DNA of 64,000 nucleotides from Rhodohalobacter sulfatireducens (GTDB taxonomy: Bacteria; Bacteroidota; Rhodothermia; Balneolales; Balneolaceae), in contig NZ_JAKLWS010000006.1 of NCBI RefSeq assembly GCF_022012475.1, positions 124,001 to 188,000 of the forward strand, read 5' to 3'. The notes beneath the pieces were generated by a model, which saw nothing but the letters and a program-made list of their open reading frames with translations, had not been told where the DNA came from and made no database searches. The first letter of the stretch is position 1; each line of letters starts with the position of its first letter. Position numbers and translations under genes: made by a program. This document shows, one piece after another, positions 31,399 through 59,635 of the stretch.

Positions 31399-31920
31399 TT
31401 ATGTGAATATAATTTCAGCACCGGCAGATTTCTCATAGAACTCTCCGACTGTGATTATGCCGTCTACTTGCTCACAGAAATCAGATTCATCTAAATGAAA
31501 CATGTCTACTGTAGCTTTACATGCATAAATTTCGGCTCCAGTATCGTGTATCATCTCTATAAACTCCCTGACAGGAGGAATATCTAAATTTTCCATTTCC
31601 TCTTTCATCTTCTTAGTTGCAAAAGATGACATCCCCGGTAGGCCTCCCAGCATTGTTGGTATATGCATAGCTGGATTCCCAACGGTAGGTACTTTTAGAT
31701 TATCCATCTTATCATTGATGATTGCTTCGAGGCCAAAAAATGTAAAGAATAGCGTTGCTTCTATTCCCTCCATCCGGGCTCCGTTTCCCATAATCAAACC
31801 CGGGTACACACCATCCAAAGATCCTTTTGAGATGATGAGCGATACTTTTTTAATTGGCTCTTTTGATGATTTTATCTCATCCAATCCTTTTGTTTTTTCT
31901 TTAGTTACAAATTGTGTCAT
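31399..31920 (-). CDS. DsrE/DsrF/DrsH-like family protein
   Basis: A 173-aa protein of the DsrE-like (COG2210-type) superfamily, which includes sulfur-carrier and persulfide-transfer proteins. Residues 24-35 form the first beta strand (KKVSLIISKGSL), GLIMGNGARMEGIEATLFFTFFGL follows, and the putative carrier cysteine is Cys134 in YACKATVDMF; a second cysteine is Cys149. It has a strong AGGAGGGA ribosome site. It is the last gene of a three-gene operon with a TusE-like protein and an SQR-like flavoprotein, which supports a role in sulfane-sulfur handling. Confidence 0.9.
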   Translation of the reverse strand: MTQFVTKEKTKGLDEIKSSKEPIKKVSLIISKGSLDGVYPGLIMGNGARMEGIEATLFFTFFGLEAIINDKMDNLKVPTVGNPAMHIPTMLGGLPGMSSFATKKMKEEMENLDIPPVREFIEMIHDTGAEIYACKATVDMFHLDESDFCEQVDGIITVGEFYEKSAGAEIIFT

Positions 31921-31935
31921 AGTAATTCCCTCCTT

Positions 31936-32253
31936 TTAAATACAACCTTTTGGTTTTGGTAATCCGGCAATTTTTGCAGCTTTTTTAGCCGGCCCTTTTG
32001 GAAATAACTGGTAAAGTTCTTTCGTAGAAACACCGCTTTCTTTCGTCAATTTTCTGATAGACGGCGCATCCCCCTGCTCGTCAAATTCCTTTTGGATATA
32101 TTTAATCACTTTCCAATGGCGGTCAGTCAATTCACCTACATCCTCAATATTTGCTAACTCCTGGGCTAGTTCTTCCGACCAATCCTCGCGATTCGCCAGG
32201 TGTCCGTCTTGATCAAGTAGAACTGTTTTTTCTTGTTTGGTTTCTGAAGTCAT
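31936..32253 (-). CDS. TusE/DsrC-family sulfur relay protein
   Basis: A 105-aa protein with the DsrC/TusE fold: LDQDGHLANREDWSEELAQELA at the N-terminus and the C-terminal arm YQLFPKGPAKKAAKIAGLPKPKGCI. The penultimate Cys104 that accepts persulfide is present. The second cysteine that true DsrC proteins carry about eleven residues earlier is alanine (Ala93), so this is a TusE-type, single-cysteine member rather than a partner of dissimilatory sulfite reductase. It lies between the flavoprotein and DsrE-like genes. Confidence 0.93.
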   Translation of the reverse strand: MTSETKQEKTVLLDQDGHLANREDWSEELAQELANIEDVGELTDRHWKVIKYIQKEFDEQGDAPSIRKLTKESGVSTKELYQLFPKGPAKKAAKIAGLPKPKGCI

Positions 32254-32273: not shown

Positions 32274-33542
32274 TTATAGTTGTAAAGTCTTTGTCTCCTG
32301 TTCCTCTTTTTCCGGTACGATCTTTCCTGCCATCGACATTTGCGATTCTAACGGAAGGTCTCTCCCTTTGATTAACATGTTCCAATAAAGCCACTTGAAT
32401 CCCATTTTCCCGATATGATTCATTTTGGTTTCTTTTAAGAGAGAAAATGGCCCAATGCCAGGTATTGGGAATTTTCCGGGGAGTGGTTCAGTATCGTAGT
32501 TAAAGTCTATAAGAAGCCCCTTGCCATCTCCCGATTCGATAAAGCAGTTCGCATGCCCGTCAAACGATGCAGTGAGCGGTTCACCATTAATATGGCTCAA
32601 AAGATTTTCGAAAAGCACATCTGATTCAAAATGGGCAACCGATCCCGCTTTTGATGAAGGAAGATTTGTTGCATCACCAATTACAAATATATTCTCCCAG
32701 TTTTCTGATTGCAGGGTATGATTATCAGTCGGAATAAAATTCAGTTCATCTCCCATTTCACTCTTCTCAATAGCCTCTATTCCCATATTTGTTGGAATCG
32801 TTACTAAAAGATCGAACTCAACTTCTCTTTCATCCCAGGAGATAATTTTCTTCTCTTCATTATCAACCCGCCCAATATTGAATTCTGTAACAAGATTAAT
32901 ATTCTTCTCTTCTAAAAAATTACCTAATTCTCTTGCGGCAATCGGTTTCGTAAATGCGGCATCGAGAGGGGTGACAAATATGATTTCCACCTTGTCTCGC
33001 ATTCCTTTTTTCTTGAAATAATCATCTGCAAGAAATAGAAATTCTAAAGGAGCTACCGGGCATTTGATCGGCATTTCGGCAATATTCAAGACCAGCTTTC
33101 CACCTTCCCAATCATCCAAAAACTCTGCCAATGCCAAAGCTCCTTCAATGGTATAAAAATCAAATATTGATTTCTTCCAGAGCTCATCGGTCATCCCCTC
33201 GATTTCGTCAGGTCGTATCTCTGTGCCCGTTGCAATAATCAAATAATCGTAGGAAAGAACATCACCACTCGACAAGTGTACCTTGTTTTCCTCCGGTTTG
33301 ATCAAATCTATCTCAGAAACGATAACATTCGTGTCCTTAGGAAAGAAATTTTTCTTGGGTTTGATAACATCTTCCTTTGAATAAATTCCGAATGGTATAA
33401 ACAAAAACCCTGGTTGATAATAGTGTGTTTCGTCTTTATCGACTATGGTGAGTCTAAATTCGTCTGACTTCAGGGCTTTACTGAGCTTGTTGGCCATCAT
33501 TGTTCCCGAAGTCCCTGCTCCTAATATGAGGATATCTTTCAT
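32274..33542 (-). CDS. Sulfide:quinone oxidoreductase-like flavoprotein
   Basis: A 422-aa FAD-dependent oxidoreductase of the SQR/NDH-2 type. The FAD motif ILGAGTSGTMMANKL is at residues 6-20, a second ATGTEIRPDEIEG block near 104, and the FAD-ribityl motif FVIGDATNLPSSKAGSVAHFE near 286-306. Two cysteines, Cys161 (KCPVAPLEF) and Cys333 (GHANCFIE), occupy positions consistent with the redox cysteine pair of SQRs. A C-terminal amphipathic part (GFKWLYWNMLIKG) suggests membrane attachment. A strong AGGAGGGA precedes the ATG. It is first in the operon, downstream of the palindromic promoter at 33727-33815. Confidence 0.88.
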   Translation of the reverse strand: MKDILILGAGTSGTMMANKLSKALKSDEFRLTIVDKDETHYYQPGFLFIPFGIYSKEDVIKPKKNFFPKDTNVIVSEIDLIKPEENKVHLSSGDVLSYDYLIIATGTEIRPDEIEGMTDELWKKSIFDFYTIEGALALAEFLDDWEGGKLVLNIAEMPIKCPVAPLEFLFLADDYFKKKGMRDKVEIIFVTPLDAAFTKPIAARELGNFLEEKNINLVTEFNIGRVDNEEKKIISWDEREVEFDLLVTIPTNMGIEAIEKSEMGDELNFIPTDNHTLQSENWENIFVIGDATNLPSSKAGSVAHFESDVLFENLLSHINGEPLTASFDGHANCFIESGDGKGLLIDFNYDTEPLPGKFPIPGIGPFSLLKETKMNHIGKMGFKWLYWNMLIKGRDLPLESQMSMAGKIVPEKEEQETKTLQL

Positions 33543-34142
33543 GATTGTTCCCTCCTGTAGTTGTATAGTGAAGAATCTCTTTTTTCTTTAACCTAATTTA
33601 AATTTGATAAAAAATATTTGTTAAAATTTCTATCGTTAAATAGGTCAAATTAATTAATGAAGATGATTCATTTCATCCGTTTGATTGCGCCTAGAATGTT
33701 TTTTGTTTGTTTGTTAATGATGCGATAAATATGGTTATAATTGTAATTAAGAGGAAGGGTACTTAATCTGATTGGGTAATAAGGGCATTCCCTACAATAG
33801 TAGGGATTTCCCCTAAAAACAGTAGATACTGGTGAGATAATAAAGACGATTAAAAAATTTTGTTATTTATTGGATCCTCTGCCCGTTTGTAGGTGAAGAA
33901 TTTGTACATAAACTTTTCCGCTTTCGAAAACTGCTCACCCTAAATTGAAATTTCTGAAATTATAATTTATCAAATCTACATATTCGAATAGTTTATTATT
34001 GATTTAGTGACTGGTTTTAAATAACCTGTTTTATATATGCTTTGCTCAAAGTCTATATCATAAAAAAATTCGGGAATCTAATTTCTGAGGTCAATTTATC
34101 CCGAGAACGAACTATCTATTGATTAATCTAAATGGAGTGAAT
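33543..34142. other. 600-base divergent regulatory gap, SQR operon / Gfo-Idh gene
   Basis: An AT-rich gap between the minus-strand SQR operon and the plus-strand oxidoreductase. Its central part, 33727-33815, is the conserved promoter module described separately. The rest, including 33820-34130, shows no reading frame, RNA motif or other repeat that I can support. Confidence 0.6.
33727..33815 (-). promoter_or_regulatory. NreC-like tandem palindromes and promoter of the SQR-TusE-DsrE operon
   Basis: Reading toward the operon, the module has a 15-bp near-palindrome at 33801-33815 (TAGGGATTTCCCCTA on the plus strand), a 6-base spacer, a second at 33780-33794 (TAAGGGCATTCCCTA), another 6-base spacer, then 33761-33773 (AATCAGATTAAGT on the minus strand), and a core-promoter-like TAACCATATTT at 33737-33727. 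The same elements with the same spacing occur at 56167-56255. The palindromes resemble TAGGG-N4-CCCTA, the published NreC site of staphylococci, with one extra central base. Confidence 0.8.
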
Positions 34143-54000: not shown

Positions 54001-55425
54001 ATGAATACACTTGTAACGGGTTTTAATAAAGAGGTTCGAAACCTGTTGGTTAATGCCCTGAGTCAACGTCATCATGATGTGTTTGTGTCGGAACCCACGC
54101 ATGAAGCTTTAAAAAAGATTAATGAAAATAGTATCTCTCTGATTATCATCAGTGATTATTCCGACGAAGCTATTCAATTCTGTAAACTGATCCGTGCCCG
54201 AGAGTATGGTCGTAAATACACGATTTTTGCAGTCATAACCCAGGATCAAACTGATTTCTTGGATAAATTAATTGATGCGGATATTGACCAATATATCATT
54301 GAATCACTGTTTGATGAACAACGACTGGATGTACGCCTTGCTTTTGCTGAAAAAATGGCCCGTAATAAAGAGGGACAGTTTCTTATCGAACAAAAATTGC
54401 GGGAGAGTGAAGCACGGGCCCGAAGTATTTTAAGAACTACTGTAGATGCAATTATCACAATTGACAACCGCGGATCAGTACGAACATTCAATAAGGCGGC
54501 TGAAGATCTATTTCAGTATAAAAGCTCTGAAGTGATTGGTGAGAATGTAAAAATGTTGATGCCTCAACCCTATCGCCGGGAGCATGACGATTATATAGAT
54601 AATTACCATAGAACCGGTGACAGGAAAATTATCGGGATTGGCAGGGAAGTAACCGGAAAGCGTAAAGATGGGTCAACATTCCCGATGTATTTGGCCGTAA
54701 GTGAGGTAAATGTTAATAATCATCGGCTCTATACAGGTATCATTCGCGATATTTCTGAACAACGTAGACTGGAGCAGGAGGTTCTGCGAGTAAGTGAACA
54801 TGAACGTCACCGAATAGGGCAGGATCTTCATGATGGTCTGGGCCAGATGTTGACCGGGATCACCCTGATTAATAAAAATATAGCAGCTTCTCTGAGGGAT
54901 GAGGATCACCCTCTTGCTGTTGAAGTGGACGAAATTACTGATTTACTAAAAGAGGCAGACGAATATGCCCGTGGTTTATCAAGAAATTTGGTTCCGGTTG
55001 AACTCGATAGCAGTGGACTTGTTGCTGCACTGCAGCGGCTTGCAACGAATGCAGAGCGATTGTTCAATATAGAATGTGAACTTAAAAATACGCTAAATAT
55101 TCAATTTGATGACCCAACAAGCCTGACACACCTTTTCAGGATTGTACAGGAGGCAACGAGCAATGCAGTAAAACATGGGAATTCCTCTAAGGTTCAAGTC
55201 GATATGCAGGCAAATGATACCCAATTAACAGTAAAAATCGAGGACAACGGAACCGGTTTTGGCCCCGACTGGGATCAAAACAAAGGACTTGGCGTCCGAA
55301 TTATGAAGTTTCGGTCAAGATTAATCGGGGCTAACCTCGAAATTTCAGACAGCAGCCTGGGCGGAGCCGCCATTATTGTAACACTTTTATCCGTGGGATC
55401 ATCATATAAAATATTATCTTCTTAA
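54001..55425 (+). CDS. Sensor kinase: pseudo-receiver, FixL-type PAS, DegS/NreB-type kinase
   Basis: A 474-aa cytoplasmic histidine kinase. Residues 1-120 form a receiver-like domain that lacks the acidic pair at the usual start (LVTGFNKEV) and has an uncertain phosphoacceptor. Residues 135-255 are a PAS domain with the FixL signature MLMPQPYRREHDDYIDNYH and GREVTGKRKDGSTFPMYLAVSE. His195 aligns with the FixL haem ligand (His200) and Arg215 with Arg220, at the same 20-residue distance. The HisKA_3 phosphoacceptor is His277 (GQDLHDGLGQ) and the ATPase domain ends near 465. It has no membrane helix and lies 20 bases upstream of its likely partner regulator. Confidence 0.9.
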   Translation: MNTLVTGFNKEVRNLLVNALSQRHHDVFVSEPTHEALKKINENSISLIIISDYSDEAIQFCKLIRAREYGRKYTIFAVITQDQTDFLDKLIDADIDQYIIESLFDEQRLDVRLAFAEKMARNKEGQFLIEQKLRESEARARSILRTTVDAIITIDNRGSVRTFNKAAEDLFQYKSSEVIGENVKMLMPQPYRREHDDYIDNYHRTGDRKIIGIGREVTGKRKDGSTFPMYLAVSEVNVNNHRLYTGIIRDISEQRRLEQEVLRVSEHERHRIGQDLHDGLGQMLTGITLINKNIAASLRDEDHPLAVEVDEITDLLKEADEYARGLSRNLVPVELDSSGLVAALQRLATNAERLFNIECELKNTLNIQFDDPTSLTHLFRIVQEATSNAVKHGNSSKVQVDMQANDTQLTVKIEDNGTGFGPDWDQNKGLGVRIMKFRSRLIGANLEISDSSLGGAAIIVTLLSVGSSYKILSS

Positions 55426-55445: not shown

Positions 55446-56102
55446 ATGGCCGAAAATAAACAGATTTATATAGTCGACGATCACCCTTTAATGAGAAAAG
55501 GACTTGCAATGACCATTGATAAAGAGATGGGATTTGAAGTCTGCGGCCAGGCCGAAAGTGCAGAAAAAGCTTTAACAGAGATTATTGACTTAAAGCCCGA
55601 CGTAGCAGTGGTGGACATTTCACTTCCCGGTATGAATGGAATTGAGCTGATCAAAAATGTTCTGCACCAGGCACCCGATTTAAAAATACTGGTTGTCTCC
55701 CGGCATGACGAAGAGTTATATGCAGAACGTGCTATTCGAGCAGGTGCCAAAGGGTATCTGATGAAACTTGAAGCTGCCGAGGTTATGATCTCCGCAATTC
55801 GCCAAATTCTCAAAGGTGGTATCTACCTGAGTGATAATATCGGCACAAAATTGATTATGAAAATGGCTTCCGGAAACTCCGCTAAAAGTGATAATCCGCT
55901 TGATCTGCTCAGCGACCGGGAACTGGAAGTTTTTGAACTAACCGGTAAGGGATTGTCTACCAAAGAGATTGGAAAAAAACTGCATATCTCTGTAAAAACA
56001 GTAGAATCTCACCGGGCTAATATTAAAGATAAACTGCAGGTTGATACTGCAAACGAATTGATGCGTCACGCTGTTAAATGGGTTGAAGAGACAGCCAAAT
56101 AG
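55446..56102 (+). CDS. NarL/NreC/FixJ-type response regulator
   Basis: A 218-aa response regulator. The receiver has the acidic pair Asp11-Asp12, phosphoacceptor Asp57 (VAVVDISLPGMNG) and the lysine of GAKGYLMK near 107. A LuxR-type HTH spans about 150-215 with SDRELEVFELTGKGLSTKEIGKKLHISVKTVESHRANIKDKL. It is the cognate partner of the upstream kinase by position. The downstream porin promoter holds palindromes like the NreC target, so it probably regulates that operon and the SQR operon. Confidence 0.93.
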   Translation: MAENKQIYIVDDHPLMRKGLAMTIDKEMGFEVCGQAESAEKALTEIIDLKPDVAVVDISLPGMNGIELIKNVLHQAPDLKILVVSRHDEELYAERAIRAGAKGYLMKLEAAEVMISAIRQILKGGIYLSDNIGTKLIMKMASGNSAKSDNPLDLLSDRELEVFELTGKGLSTKEIGKKLHISVKTVESHRANIKDKLQVDTANELMRHAVKWVEETAK

Positions 56103-56332
56103 TAATGTTATGCTTATAATTACCGATTATTTACCAACACAAGTGCTCTCTTCTTTTCACATCTTTTAGGGGAAACCCCTACGGATATGGGGAATATCCT
56201 TACTATCTAATCAGATTAAGTCCCCTAACTCTTAATACCCTTTCTAACCATATTTGTATCGTCATCAAGAAACAAAAGATGACAACCGAGTAACGGTTAA
56301 ACAGATGAAAAAGATCATCTTCAACAATAATA
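56103..56332 (+). promoter_or_regulatory. Intergenic region with NreC-like tandem palindromes and promoter for the porin operon
   Basis: Within this 230-base gap, 56167-56181 is a perfect 15-bp palindrome (TAGGGGAAACCCCTA). After a 6-base spacer comes a related imperfect site at 56188-56202, then a further 6 bases and 56209-56221 (AATCAGATTAAGT, containing the palindrome AATCAGATT), and a core-promoter-like TAACCATATTT at 56245-56255. The same layout, in the same orientation relative to the gene, precedes the SQR operon at 33727-33815. A plausible start point lies about 80 bases before the porin ATG. Confidence 0.82.
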
Positions 56333-57622
56333 ATGACTAAAAAAATTATGAAAGCTTTAACAACAACCATAACAACATTTATATTCGCTTTACTATTTGT
56401 GAACATGGGTCTACAGGCTCAGGATTCAAGAGATCTTCAATACTATGTAGCTCCTGATCAAACAGGACTGAATGAATTTGAAGCTCCATTCACTACAGAT
56501 ATTGATTTCGACGGAGTTAACATTCGACTTGGTGGTTCCAACACCTTGCAGTTCCAGGGAATCAACCACGACAATGATGCCGGTGACCTCGCCGAATTGG
56601 AATCAAATTTCAACCTTGCCACTTCCAACCTCGATTTTGATGTGGCTCTTGCACCGGGATTAAGAATGCACCTGAGAACCTATCTTTCTTCTCAGCACCA
56701 TGCCGAAGCTTGGGTAAAAGGTGGATATCTGCAAATCGATACTTTTGATTTTATCGAAGAAGGATTTCTGTCAGGATTGAGCGATCACGTGCGGGTTAAA
56801 GTTGGTCATATGGAAAACAACTACGGCGACACTCACTTCCGACGAAGTGACAACGGTGCAACGATCCACAACCCTTTTGTTGGTAACTACATTATGGATT
56901 CGTTCACAACAGAAGTTGGTGGAGAAGTGTATCTTTATAATGGCCCTATTTTCGGTATGATCGGCTTGACCAATGGTAAATTGAATCAAAGCACAGTTGA
57001 AGGCCCAATTAAAGCAAAACCTTCCTTCCTCGCTAAAGTTGGTTACGACAGCCAGATAAATGACAATGTTCGTGTTCGATTAACAGGATCTCTATTCAGA
57101 GTTTCCCAAAATGGATCCATTTATCTCTACTCAGGTGACCGTGCCGGGTCAAGATATTATAACGTTATTACTCCTGGCAACTTCCGAGCAGGACGATTTT
57201 CACCTACCTTTACTCCAGGACGTGGTTCAGAACCGGCAGCCGGTGAAATGACCTCGATTATGATAAACCCATTCGTAAAAATTGGTGGCCTTGAATTCTT
57301 TGGTGTCTTTGAAAACGTATCCGGACAGATTGAAACCGAATCAAGTTCACGATCTTTTACCCAACTGGGTGCTGAACTCCTCTACAGATTTGGAGCCACA
57401 GAAGATTTTTACATCGGCGGACGTTATAATGCCGTATCAGGTGAGCACATTAGCGATGGTGACATCGACATCACCCGAGTAAATATTGGCGGTGGATGGT
57501 TCTTAACCAAGAACGTATTGACCAAACTTGAGTACGTAACTCAATCCTACGATAACTTCTCAGGGCCATATGCTGGAGCCGAATTCAGTGGAATTAATAT
57601 TGAAGCTGTTGTAAGTTTCTAA
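56333..57622 (+). CDS. Outer-membrane porin (OprO/OprP-like beta-barrel)
   Basis: A 429-aa exported outer-membrane protein. The N-terminus has a signal peptide (hydrophobic stretch TTFIFALLFVNMGLQAQ); MKALTTTITTF at 56348 is an alternative start. The mature part consists of alternating beta-strands of porin type (for example FDFDVALAPGLRMHLRTYLSS-like and VRVRLTGSLFRVSQNGSIYLYS), with long loops, and ends in a phenylalanine (AVVSF), the typical outer-membrane C-terminus. The transported solute is unknown. It is first in an operon downstream of the NreC-like palindromes. Confidence 0.85.
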   Translation: MTKKIMKALTTTITTFIFALLFVNMGLQAQDSRDLQYYVAPDQTGLNEFEAPFTTDIDFDGVNIRLGGSNTLQFQGINHDNDAGDLAELESNFNLATSNLDFDVALAPGLRMHLRTYLSSQHHAEAWVKGGYLQIDTFDFIEEGFLSGLSDHVRVKVGHMENNYGDTHFRRSDNGATIHNPFVGNYIMDSFTTEVGGEVYLYNGPIFGMIGLTNGKLNQSTVEGPIKAKPSFLAKVGYDSQINDNVRVRLTGSLFRVSQNGSIYLYSGDRAGSRYYNVITPGNFRAGRFSPTFTPGRGSEPAAGEMTSIMINPFVKIGGLEFFGVFENVSGQIETESSSRSFTQLGAELLYRFGATEDFYIGGRYNAVSGEHISDGDIDITRVNIGGGWFLTKNVLTKLEYVTQSYDNFSGPYAGAEFSGINIEAVVSF

Positions 57623-57701: not shown

Positions 57702-58307
57702 ATGCTTACTCAACGAATAATATCCGTTTTAGCACTCCTCTTTTTTATAGCAGGACCCGCATTAGGACAAAGTTTGACCCTTAATACACAAGGTGCTCAA
57801 GAGATGCACATTTATGGTGATTCCAACATTAAAAAATGGGATGCTGCCGTAAATCAAGTAAGTGGTTCATTGACATTACAAAATATTGAAAACTTAACTG
57901 CTGAAAATTTAACTGCAGAGAACTTTCAAAGTTTAACTCTAACAATACCTGTTGAGCAGATTGAATCTGAATCTGGTGGATTAACCAGTAATATTCATAA
58001 ATACTTAAAAGGAGATGACTATCCGAATATCACTTTCCAGTTGAATAACGTTACAGACATAACTGAACAGAACGGCTCACTATTGATTACTGCATCAGGA
58101 GTGGTAAATGCTGCAGGTTCAGACAACCCAGTGGAAATGCAAGTAACTGCAGATTTAACGGATGGTGGAATTCAATTTTCAGGGGCTCAGGAACTACTGA
58201 TGACTAATTTTAATATCGATCCACCCACTGCTGTATTTGGAACCATCCGTTCTAAAGACGAATTTAGAGTAGAATTTAACGTAAACTTTGGCCAAGAAGG
58301 TGTATAA
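57702..58307 (+). CDS. YceI-family secreted protein, copy 1
   Basis: A 201-aa exported lipid-binding beta-barrel of the YceI type. The signal peptide is MLTQRIISVLALLFFIAGPALGQ. YceI markers are the HIYGDSNIKKWDAAVNQVSGSLTL opening, IHKYLKGDDYPNITFQLNNV and TNFNIDPPTAVFGTIRSKDEFRVEF. YceI proteins bind isoprenoid-quinone-like lipids in known structures. The second copy is seven bases downstream. Confidence 0.9.
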   Translation: MLTQRIISVLALLFFIAGPALGQSLTLNTQGAQEMHIYGDSNIKKWDAAVNQVSGSLTLQNIENLTAENLTAENFQSLTLTIPVEQIESESGGLTSNIHKYLKGDDYPNITFQLNNVTDITEQNGSLLITASGVVNAAGSDNPVEMQVTADLTDGGIQFSGAQELLMTNFNIDPPTAVFGTIRSKDEFRVEFNVNFGQEGV

Positions 58308-58314
58308 TTAGAAT

Positions 58315-58953
58315 ATGAAAAACTTCCTATCCATAACATTTATTAAATACTTACTTCTTGTCAGTTTTTTACTGGCTGGTGTGGGGGAAGTTTTTTCATT
58401 TCAATCGACGTTTGTACCGCTAAGTGAAAGCAGGTTGTGGATTGAGGGTAGTTCCAATGTAAATGAATTTGAATGCCAGGCTGAAGAATATGATGGCGAA
58501 GCAACAATTCCACAAGAGGAAGACCCATTGGAAAATGTTGCACCTGTAGAAAACCAAATATTATCGATAAAGGTAGATATTCAGGTTGACAGTATAGAAT
58601 GCGGTAAACGAAAAATGAACCAGGATCTGCAAAAAGCACTACAAGCAGAAAAATATCCTCAGATCAGTTTCCTGTATCAAAGTGCTGAGTTGTTAAGCGA
58701 ACCGGAGAACCCGGACGATGGATTTCAACTTGAGGTTCAAGGATTGTTAACCATAGCAGGTACCACAAAGGAAATTAAATTTACGACGGAAGCGTACTAT
58801 ATAAATTCGGGAAGTGTACGTGCACGGGGTGGTACTACAATTAATATGACTGACTTTGGCGTTGAACCTCCCACTGCTTTGATGGGATTAATTCGGGCTA
58901 ACGAGGAACTCACCGTTAATTTTGATCTGATTGCCAAACCCAGAAATATATAG
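58315..58953 (+). CDS. YceI-family secreted protein, copy 2
   Basis: A 212-aa exported YceI protein, clearly diverged from copy 1. A signal peptide spans about residues 1-29 (FIKYLLLVSFLLAGVGEVFSFQ). The family blocks are LWIEGSSNVNEFECQAEEYDGEA, ALQAEKYPQISFLYQSAELL and INMTDFGVEPPTALMGLIRANEELTVNFDL. Two cysteines (in FECQAEE and IECGKRK) could form a disulfide. It lies between copy 1 and the nitroreductase-like gene. Confidence 0.9.
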   Translation: MKNFLSITFIKYLLLVSFLLAGVGEVFSFQSTFVPLSESRLWIEGSSNVNEFECQAEEYDGEATIPQEEDPLENVAPVENQILSIKVDIQVDSIECGKRKMNQDLQKALQAEKYPQISFLYQSAELLSEPENPDDGFQLEVQGLLTIAGTTKEIKFTTEAYYINSGSVRARGGTTINMTDFGVEPPTALMGLIRANEELTVNFDLIAKPRNI

Positions 58954-58963
58954 AGTAAGAGAG

Positions 58964-59635
58964 ATGTTAAAAAAATGGATCGATGAGATTCGTAAACAAT
59001 CGGATCTCTATAAGTCAAACTGTTGGAAATATCACATATCGGGAAATGTAATTGAACTTTCCATTTTGCCAGATTACATGAAACAGAAGAAAACCTATCG
59101 ATGTTCCGTGATTTCTGTAGGCCAGGTACTAAAAGCTCTATCGAAAAAGATCGAAAAAGAAAATCTAAACTTTCATATTCAAAGTTTTTCAAATCTTGAA
59201 AATCCGGAAATTGTAGCAACAATTCGAACGGATGAAAAAAATGAATTTACCGGTAATTCCAGTCTCAAAGAAAAAAGTTACGACTCGAAGCAGGATGTAG
59301 CTTCATTGACTCAAACAATTGCGAAGAAATATAAACTTGAAGTTCAAGAGGTGGAAGCTACTTCACAATTGAATTTGGAGGAAATATCAACTGAGAACTA
59401 TCCAAGATGGATAGCTGTTTATTCCACCTTCAACAATCCGTTTACGTGGTTGAATATTGGCTATTTTAAAGAATCTCTTCGAAATGAGTTTGCAGGTCTC
59501 CCATCATCACAAAAATCCTGTTTTTTAGATTTTTGTGATGCTAAGGCAAATGAATTCCCAAGCTTGAAGATTCCCGAAAGTAAATATGTCCAGTTACTGA
59601 TAGGTATTCAGCCGATAAGTGTATCTGTCGAATAA
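58964..59635 (+). CDS. Hypothetical protein, possibly nitroreductase-like (Acg type)
   Basis: A 223-aa soluble protein starting at ATG 58964 (upstream codons overlap the YceI stop). The first half, SNCWKYHISGNVIELSILPDYMKQ then SVGQVLKALSKKIEKENLNFHIQSF, resembles the N-terminal half of Acg-family nitroreductases (HNxQPWxF...), but the HN-QPW motif itself is changed to SNCWKY. The end, KYVQLLIGIQPISV, resembles the family's last strand. It is about 100 residues shorter than typical Acg proteins. The assignment is tentative; the protein is otherwise unrecognised. Confidence 0.5.
   Translation: MLKKWIDEIRKQSDLYKSNCWKYHISGNVIELSILPDYMKQKKTYRCSVISVGQVLKALSKKIEKENLNFHIQSFSNLENPEIVATIRTDEKNEFTGNSSLKEKSYDSKQDVASLTQTIAKKYKLEVQEVEATSQLNLEEISTENYPRWIAVYSTFNNPFTWLNIGYFKESLRNEFAGLPSSQKSCFLDFCDAKANEFPSLKIPESKYVQLLIGIQPISVSVE

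Follow-up and report, generated by a model that had tools for sequence, protein, structure and literature searches.

Organization of the locus

The window analysed here is a stretch of 64,000 nucleotides from the genome of Rhodohalobacter sulfatireducens, and coordinates refer to it unless another contig is named. The open reading frame at 54001-55425 is a real gene with an ATG start, and of 27 genomes searched in the same genus, 22 have a full-length orthologue of 66-90% identity. It encodes a sensor histidine kinase, 20 bp downstream of which starts the gene of a response regulator, followed by the gene of a predicted porin-type barrel and two YceI genes. The features of this part of the window are:

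54001..55425, plus strand: sensor histidine kinase of 474 amino acids (pseudo-receiver, FixL-type PAS, HisKA_3, HATPase_c)
54001..54360, plus strand: predicted receiver fold, residues 1-120 (AlphaFold, VIA and hmmsearch CheY match; Pfam Response_reg sub-threshold)
54418..54753, plus strand: predicted FixL-type haem PAS domain, residues 140-251 (phmmer to FixL structures, NCBIfam FixL)
54583..54585, plus strand: codon of His195, equivalent of the haem ligand His200 of Bradyrhizobium FixL (BjFixL)
54643..54645, plus strand: codon of Arg215, equivalent of the distal Arg220 of BjFixL
54802..55002, plus strand: HisKA_3 dimerisation/phospho-acceptor domain (Pfam, alignment)
55126..55386, plus strand: HATPase_c, with invariant N388, D415xG417xG419 and G431 (VIA Z 17.4 to the VraS ATP-binding domain)
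55446..56102, plus strand: response regulator of NarL/DosR/VraR type, receiver (Asp57, Lys107) and LuxR/GerE DNA-binding domain
56167..56181: putative regulator box 1, TAGGGGAAACCCCTA, in the regulator-porin gap
56188..56202: putative regulator box 2, TGGGGAATATCCTTA, weaker, 21 bp from box 1
56209..56221, plus strand: conserved promoter element AATCAGATTAAGT (AATCAGA element), following the proximal box at an almost constant spacing
56333..57622, plus strand: predicted outer-membrane beta-barrel of porin type (low-confidence model, porin/OprP-like Foldseek matches, no Pfam family match)
57702..58307, plus strand: YceI-family protein 1 (Pfam)
58315..58953, plus strand: YceI-family protein 2 (Pfam)

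Catalytic half of the kinase

Pfam assigned residues 140-251 to PAS (3.5e-13), 268-334 to HisKA_3 (6.3e-11) and 376-462 to HATPase_c (9e-11), all above the curated cut-offs. His277 (codon 54829-54831) lies within QDLHDGLGQ, the HisKA_3 motif, and the HDxxxQ residues as well as the catalytic residues of the kinase are invariant among 24 orthologues. The two domains, together with His-Asp-x-x-x-Gln, mark the protein as a HisKA_3 histidine kinase; the sequence-only reading had likewise assigned the catalytic part to HisKA_3, with His277, rather than to HisKA. The kinase half matches several HisKA_3 families of NCBIfam; MctS (with its partner MctR), UhpB, NarQ and LiaS provide the best-scoring models for this half and for the regulator, but the scores are far below the equivalog cut-offs and the sensor domains differ.

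Predicted haem PAS domain

The PAS domain aligns without gaps to BjFixL (62 of 132 residues identical, 47%) and to Sinorhizobium FixL (RmFixL; 61 of 122, 50%), and the solved FixL haem domains match it in phmmer at about 1e-34, gap-free as well. The NCBIfam FixL model covers residues 126-258 only (1.8e-45), its 155.5 bits standing against a whole-protein cut-off of 850. In the gap-free alignments His195 and Arg215 fall opposite His200 and Arg220 of BjFixL with the same spacing, and Ile210 and Ile213 opposite Ile215 and Ile218, exactly as had been proposed from the letters of the sequence; His195 and Arg215 are invariant in 24 of 24 orthologues. Location of His195 in the F-alpha helix agrees with its ungapped alignment to His200, with a helix at residues 191-205 of the model (low pLDDT) and with its invariance. 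The full-length AlphaFold model is poor in the PAS domain (pLDDT below 50), for which reason it is not used to describe the structure of the haem pocket; a Foldseek search with this model still matches FixL structures at 43-48% identity.

At the position of the proximal Arg206 of BjFixL this protein has Asn201, a residue shared by all 24 orthologues of the genus and often seen in more distant members of the family. Arg206 is present in both BjFixL and RmFixL and may or may not be strictly defining for FixL. The title of the solved structure 2cmn ties a proximal Arg to FixL switching, and the substitution therefore suggests that switching may differ from that of FixL. Judged from its sequence, the gene product is very probably a gas sensor that works by haem, with a FixL-like sensing domain and a kinase half of another type.

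N-terminal pseudo-receiver

A five-fold beta-alpha receiver is predicted by AlphaFold for residues 1-120 with block pLDDT of 76-92, and this model matches solved receivers with VIA Z of 15-17. An hmmsearch match to CheY was obtained at 1e-4, while Pfam Response_reg stayed sub-threshold for the N-terminus, the best single orthologue reaching 1.9e-6. The usual acidic pair is replaced by G7/F8, which bears out the earlier description of a degenerate receiver, and the conserved receiver Lys is replaced by E101; 23 of 24 orthologues retain D52, which falls on the phospho-acceptor Asp in the alignment. Comparison of the domain with receivers of the partner regulators by hhalign gave a weak match (probability 3.9%, E 0.011), so the receiver assignment is based on the fold and on the CheY matches. 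In other families of the order the N-terminal module is swapped, for example for a GAF domain in L035, and the PAS-kinase core remains constant; this exchange makes the pseudo-receiver most likely an accessory module.

Distribution and age of the PAS-HisKA_3 design

Scanning of the GTDB species genomes with the PAS-kinase alignment yielded 80 loci, from phyla that include Balneolota, Rhodothermota, Verrucomicrobiota, Planctomycetota, Kiritimatiellota and Acidobacteriota. Of these loci, 73 retain the haem His together with the distal Arg; in the exceptions, three Acidobacteriota loci and four others, the residues are missing or the sequence is incomplete. The PAS-kinase tree groups by phylum, with 7 changes as compared to a possible minimum of 6 and a shuffled mean of 35.6. 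The spread across phyla and the phylum-following tree indicate that the fusion is old within the 80-locus set. Within the order, the kinase occurs in 36 of 58 related genomes at an identity of at least 47%.

A paralogue in the same genome (L002, C50:446589-447548) is a PAS-PAS-HisKA_3 kinase that has a regulator of its own and whose FixL-like PAS has lost the haem His. In the Acidobacteriota relatives L112, L113 and L115 the haem His is missing and so is the distal Arg, and hydrogenase-like genes were recognised by eye downstream of L113. At Verrucomicrobiota loci (L066-L081, L116) the kinase is found in linkage with a PocR-AraC regulator and with a gene for an acyl-CoA synthetase/GNAT acetyltransferase, and a TAGGGN5CCCTA-like site lies upstream in some of them.

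The sequence-only reading was right in its observations, namely a FixL-type haem PAS joined to a HisKA_3 kinase, and a degenerate receiver; the HisKA_3/HATPase_c kinase is intact, and a regulator of NarL type is encoded next to it. Its interpretation of the protein as an individual chimera, in which the NreB sensor was swapped for a FixL-type one, is not supported; occurrence of the fusion in at least four phyla and a tree that follows the phyla rule out a one-off event. A description of the pairing of FixL-type PAS with HisKA_3 was not found in the open-licence literature, which may miss most such papers, and the sensor design is apparently old, widespread and undescribed.

Response regulator and conserved neighbours

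The response regulator retains the receiver catalytic residues, and a relative of it was detected in nearly all of the wider loci. Among solved regulators VraR is the closest, DevR/DosR comes second and NarL next, and FixJ scores far lower. Downstream of the kinase-regulator pair, three Balneolota families have the predicted porin-type barrel and, where the contig extends that far, two YceI genes. The gene at 58931-59635, which belongs to no known family, is conserved after the YceI pair and has its own box-bearing promoter in related genomes. Elsewhere, the surroundings of the pair include nosZ (L058), a universal stress gene (L055) or nitroreductase genes (L061, L111); these neighbourhoods, each seen at single loci, fit low-oxygen control.

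Candidate regulator site

The regulator-porin gap, 230 bp long here, was compared across three families of the order, which provided 17 distinct gaps. TAGGGN5CCCTA is present exactly in 7 of the 17 (shuffled mean 0.007) and within one mismatch in 15 (shuffled mean 0.15, maximum 2), while the other spacers (1-4 and 6-9) gave 0-1 matches in the same gaps. This conservation makes TAGGGN5CCCTA the probable site of the regulator. The AATCAGA element is also found at single-box promoters before the gene following the YceI pair in related genomes, and in G019, where the porin-YceI operon is unlinked from the kinase, the exact box and the element are still there.

The exact box occurs at two places only in the 5.1-Mb genome, both within the window. 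When one mismatch was allowed, 30 places were recorded genome-wide as against 163 for a reversed-pattern control, and one-mismatch matches beyond the two promoters are therefore not counted as targets. Among 62 upstream regions outside Balneolota, 6 have the box within one mismatch (shuffled mean 0.21, maximum 3), and in Verrucomicrobiota it stands ahead of the PocR-AraC/kinase operon; these sequence matches are suggestive of a box outside Balneolota. Near the Rhodothermota loci little was found, and the evidence there is weak.

Exact boxes without the AATCAGA element stand near mtnA-like, YgaP-like and DksA/TraR-like genes in G018, G024, G015, G003 and G009 (L162-L165, L175), and may be targets or chance occurrences. 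The repeated GC-rich palindromes TAGGGC-NNN-GCCCTA of G008, G016 and G024 are probably an unrelated repeat family.

Sulfur operon and its promoter

The second exact box heads an operon of sulfur genes on the minus strand, with the following features:

33801..33815: second exact box of the whole genome, TAGGGGAAATCCCTA on the minus strand, at the head of the sulfur operon
33780..33794: weaker box with one mismatch, 21 bp away, in the sulfur-operon promoter
33658..33818, minus strand: promoter copy, 74% identical to the porin promoter
32274..33542, minus strand: type III sulfide:quinone oxidoreductase (NCBIfam NF049943, 667.8 bits, cut-off 525)
31936..32253, minus strand: DsrC/TusE-family sulfur relay protein (TIGR03342, 104 bits, cut-off 53.5; PF04358)
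31399..31920, minus strand: DsrE2-like sulfur carrier (PF13686, 1.4e-29; NF047629, 8e-26, below cut-off)

A search of the genome with the 171-bp porin promoter revealed one other copy, the sulfur-operon promoter (E 1.7e-21), the next best match having an E of 0.2. The promoters at 33658-33818 and 56160-56330 share 74% identity along some 160 bp. The sulfide:quinone oxidoreductase is present in only 3 of the 58 related genomes of the order, own genome included. The simplest reading is that the sulfur operon is a recent arrival to which a copy of the porin promoter was added, where we infer both the direction and the mechanism of the event.

Comparison with known systems

FixL senses oxygen by its PAS haem, and NreB uses an iron-sulfur centre. 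The present system resembles FixL-FixJ of Bradyrhizobium and Sinorhizobium in the haem PAS, with its His ligand, distal Arg and Ile pair, and in a LuxR-type partner regulator. It differs in having a HisKA_3 kinase in place of the HisKA of FixL, a score below the whole-protein cut-off for FixL, a regulator closer to VraR/DosR/NarL than to FixJ, and Asn201 in place of Arg206. The cbb3 oxidase, the classic target of FixL, seems to be missing; the genome has two terminal oxidases, judged by eye to be aa3-like and B-like, and no third COX1-family match was found in it. DosS/DosT-DosR of Mycobacterium likewise couples a HisKA_3-type kinase that carries a haem sensor to a regulator of NarL type, but its haem is held in a GAF domain, for which the protein encoded at 54001-55425 has no Pfam match.

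With NreB-NreC of Staphylococcus and Bacillus licheniformis the system shares a PAS-containing kinase, a NarL-type regulator and, putatively, a GC-rich palindromic site. The palindrome of NreC is TAGGGN4CCCTA, which the putative site TAGGGN5CCCTA conserved next to the porin operon resembles. The regulator earlier proposed to be NreC-like is a NarL-type regulator whose gene adjoins that of the kinase. A review describes the NreC site as a GC-rich palindrome (PMC8139620). The staphylococcal NreB carries a [4Fe-4S] cluster, whereas the PAS here is of FixL type. The four [4Fe-4S] cysteines of NreB are absent, as the only cysteines of the protein are C61 and C359, neither of them in the PAS domain, and an iron-sulfur sensor like NreB is ruled out.

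Proposed mechanism and alternative signals

The reading preferred here, to which we give a probability of roughly 0.6, is that of a soluble haem two-component system from an old and widespread family, having a kinase turned off by oxygen, paired boxes activating the porin-YceI-YceI and sulfur operons, and an accessory pseudo-receiver. Haem b would be bound in the PAS domain on His195, with Arg215 and Ile213 over its distal face. Without oxygen the kinase would be active, His277 being phosphorylated and the phosphate passed to Asp57 of the regulator, and oxygen on the haem would turn it off by analogy with FixL, in which the deoxy-haem kinase is active and oxygen switches it off. The phosphorylated regulator would bind the paired TAGGGN5CCCTA boxes, 21 bp or two helical turns apart, and would presumably activate, rather than repress, both the porin-YceI-YceI operon and the sulfide:quinone oxidoreductase-DsrC-DsrE2 operon that this genome has. 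The pseudo-receiver may modulate the dimer and would not be needed for haem sensing.

The main rival, which is unlikely, is a sulfide sensor, in which H2S bound by ferric haem would turn the kinase on and sulfide would induce the oxidoreductase operon and the porin-YceI genes. The sulfur operon as a target suits sulfide equally well, and one of the only two exact boxes stands at its head. Sulfide is the signal of NreBC in Bacillus licheniformis, where this system drives sqr-pdo (PMC9918477), and H2S at ferric haem turns on the haem kinase DosS (PMC9062744). However, with the oxidoreductase in 3 and the kinase in 36 of the 58 genomes, sulfide oxidation cannot be the core task of the kinase, and this disparity favours oxygen over sulfide as the signal. 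Moreover, near the copy of the sulfur operon in G034 no box within one mismatch was found, and the pocket residues are those of the oxygen sensor FixL.

That the haem kinase responds in the cell to another gas (NO or CO), or to the redox state of its haem, is improbable; sensors with a haem PAS or GAF domain generally bind several gases and L058 lies beside nosZ, but that neighbourhood was seen once only and the distal Arg-Ile arrangement is that of FixL. An ordinary signalling PAS without haem, with the pseudo-receiver or a partner protein as the real input, is the most improbable of all, for although Asn201 stands in place of Arg206 and the paralogue L002 lost the His and was yet kept, so that haem-free members exist, His195 and Arg215 are invariant in the orthologues and kept in 73 of the 80 distant loci, and the N-terminal module is exchanged between lineages.

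Biological implications

The locus most likely holds a two-component system for low oxygen which has gained a sulfur operon as a target. A broader reading, which we hold to be rather doubtful, would extend this account to a widespread uncharacterised family of FixL-type haem PAS-HisKA_3 kinases whose NarL-type regulators read TAGGGN5CCCTA from Balneolota to Verrucomicrobiota; through the copied promoter a sulfide-oxidation operon acquired horizontally would, in this genome, have come under the control of haem, and one kinase would integrate oxygen and sulfide.

If the preferred low-oxygen reading is true, FixL-type haem sensing also works via a kinase-regulator pair of the DosSR/NreBC kind, and the promoter copy before the rare sulfur operon would be a clear and testable example of promoter duplication bringing a new operon into a regulon. 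The reading would further identify the likely gas sensor in several phyla that have been little studied and tie this sensor to a DNA site and target genes open to direct tests.
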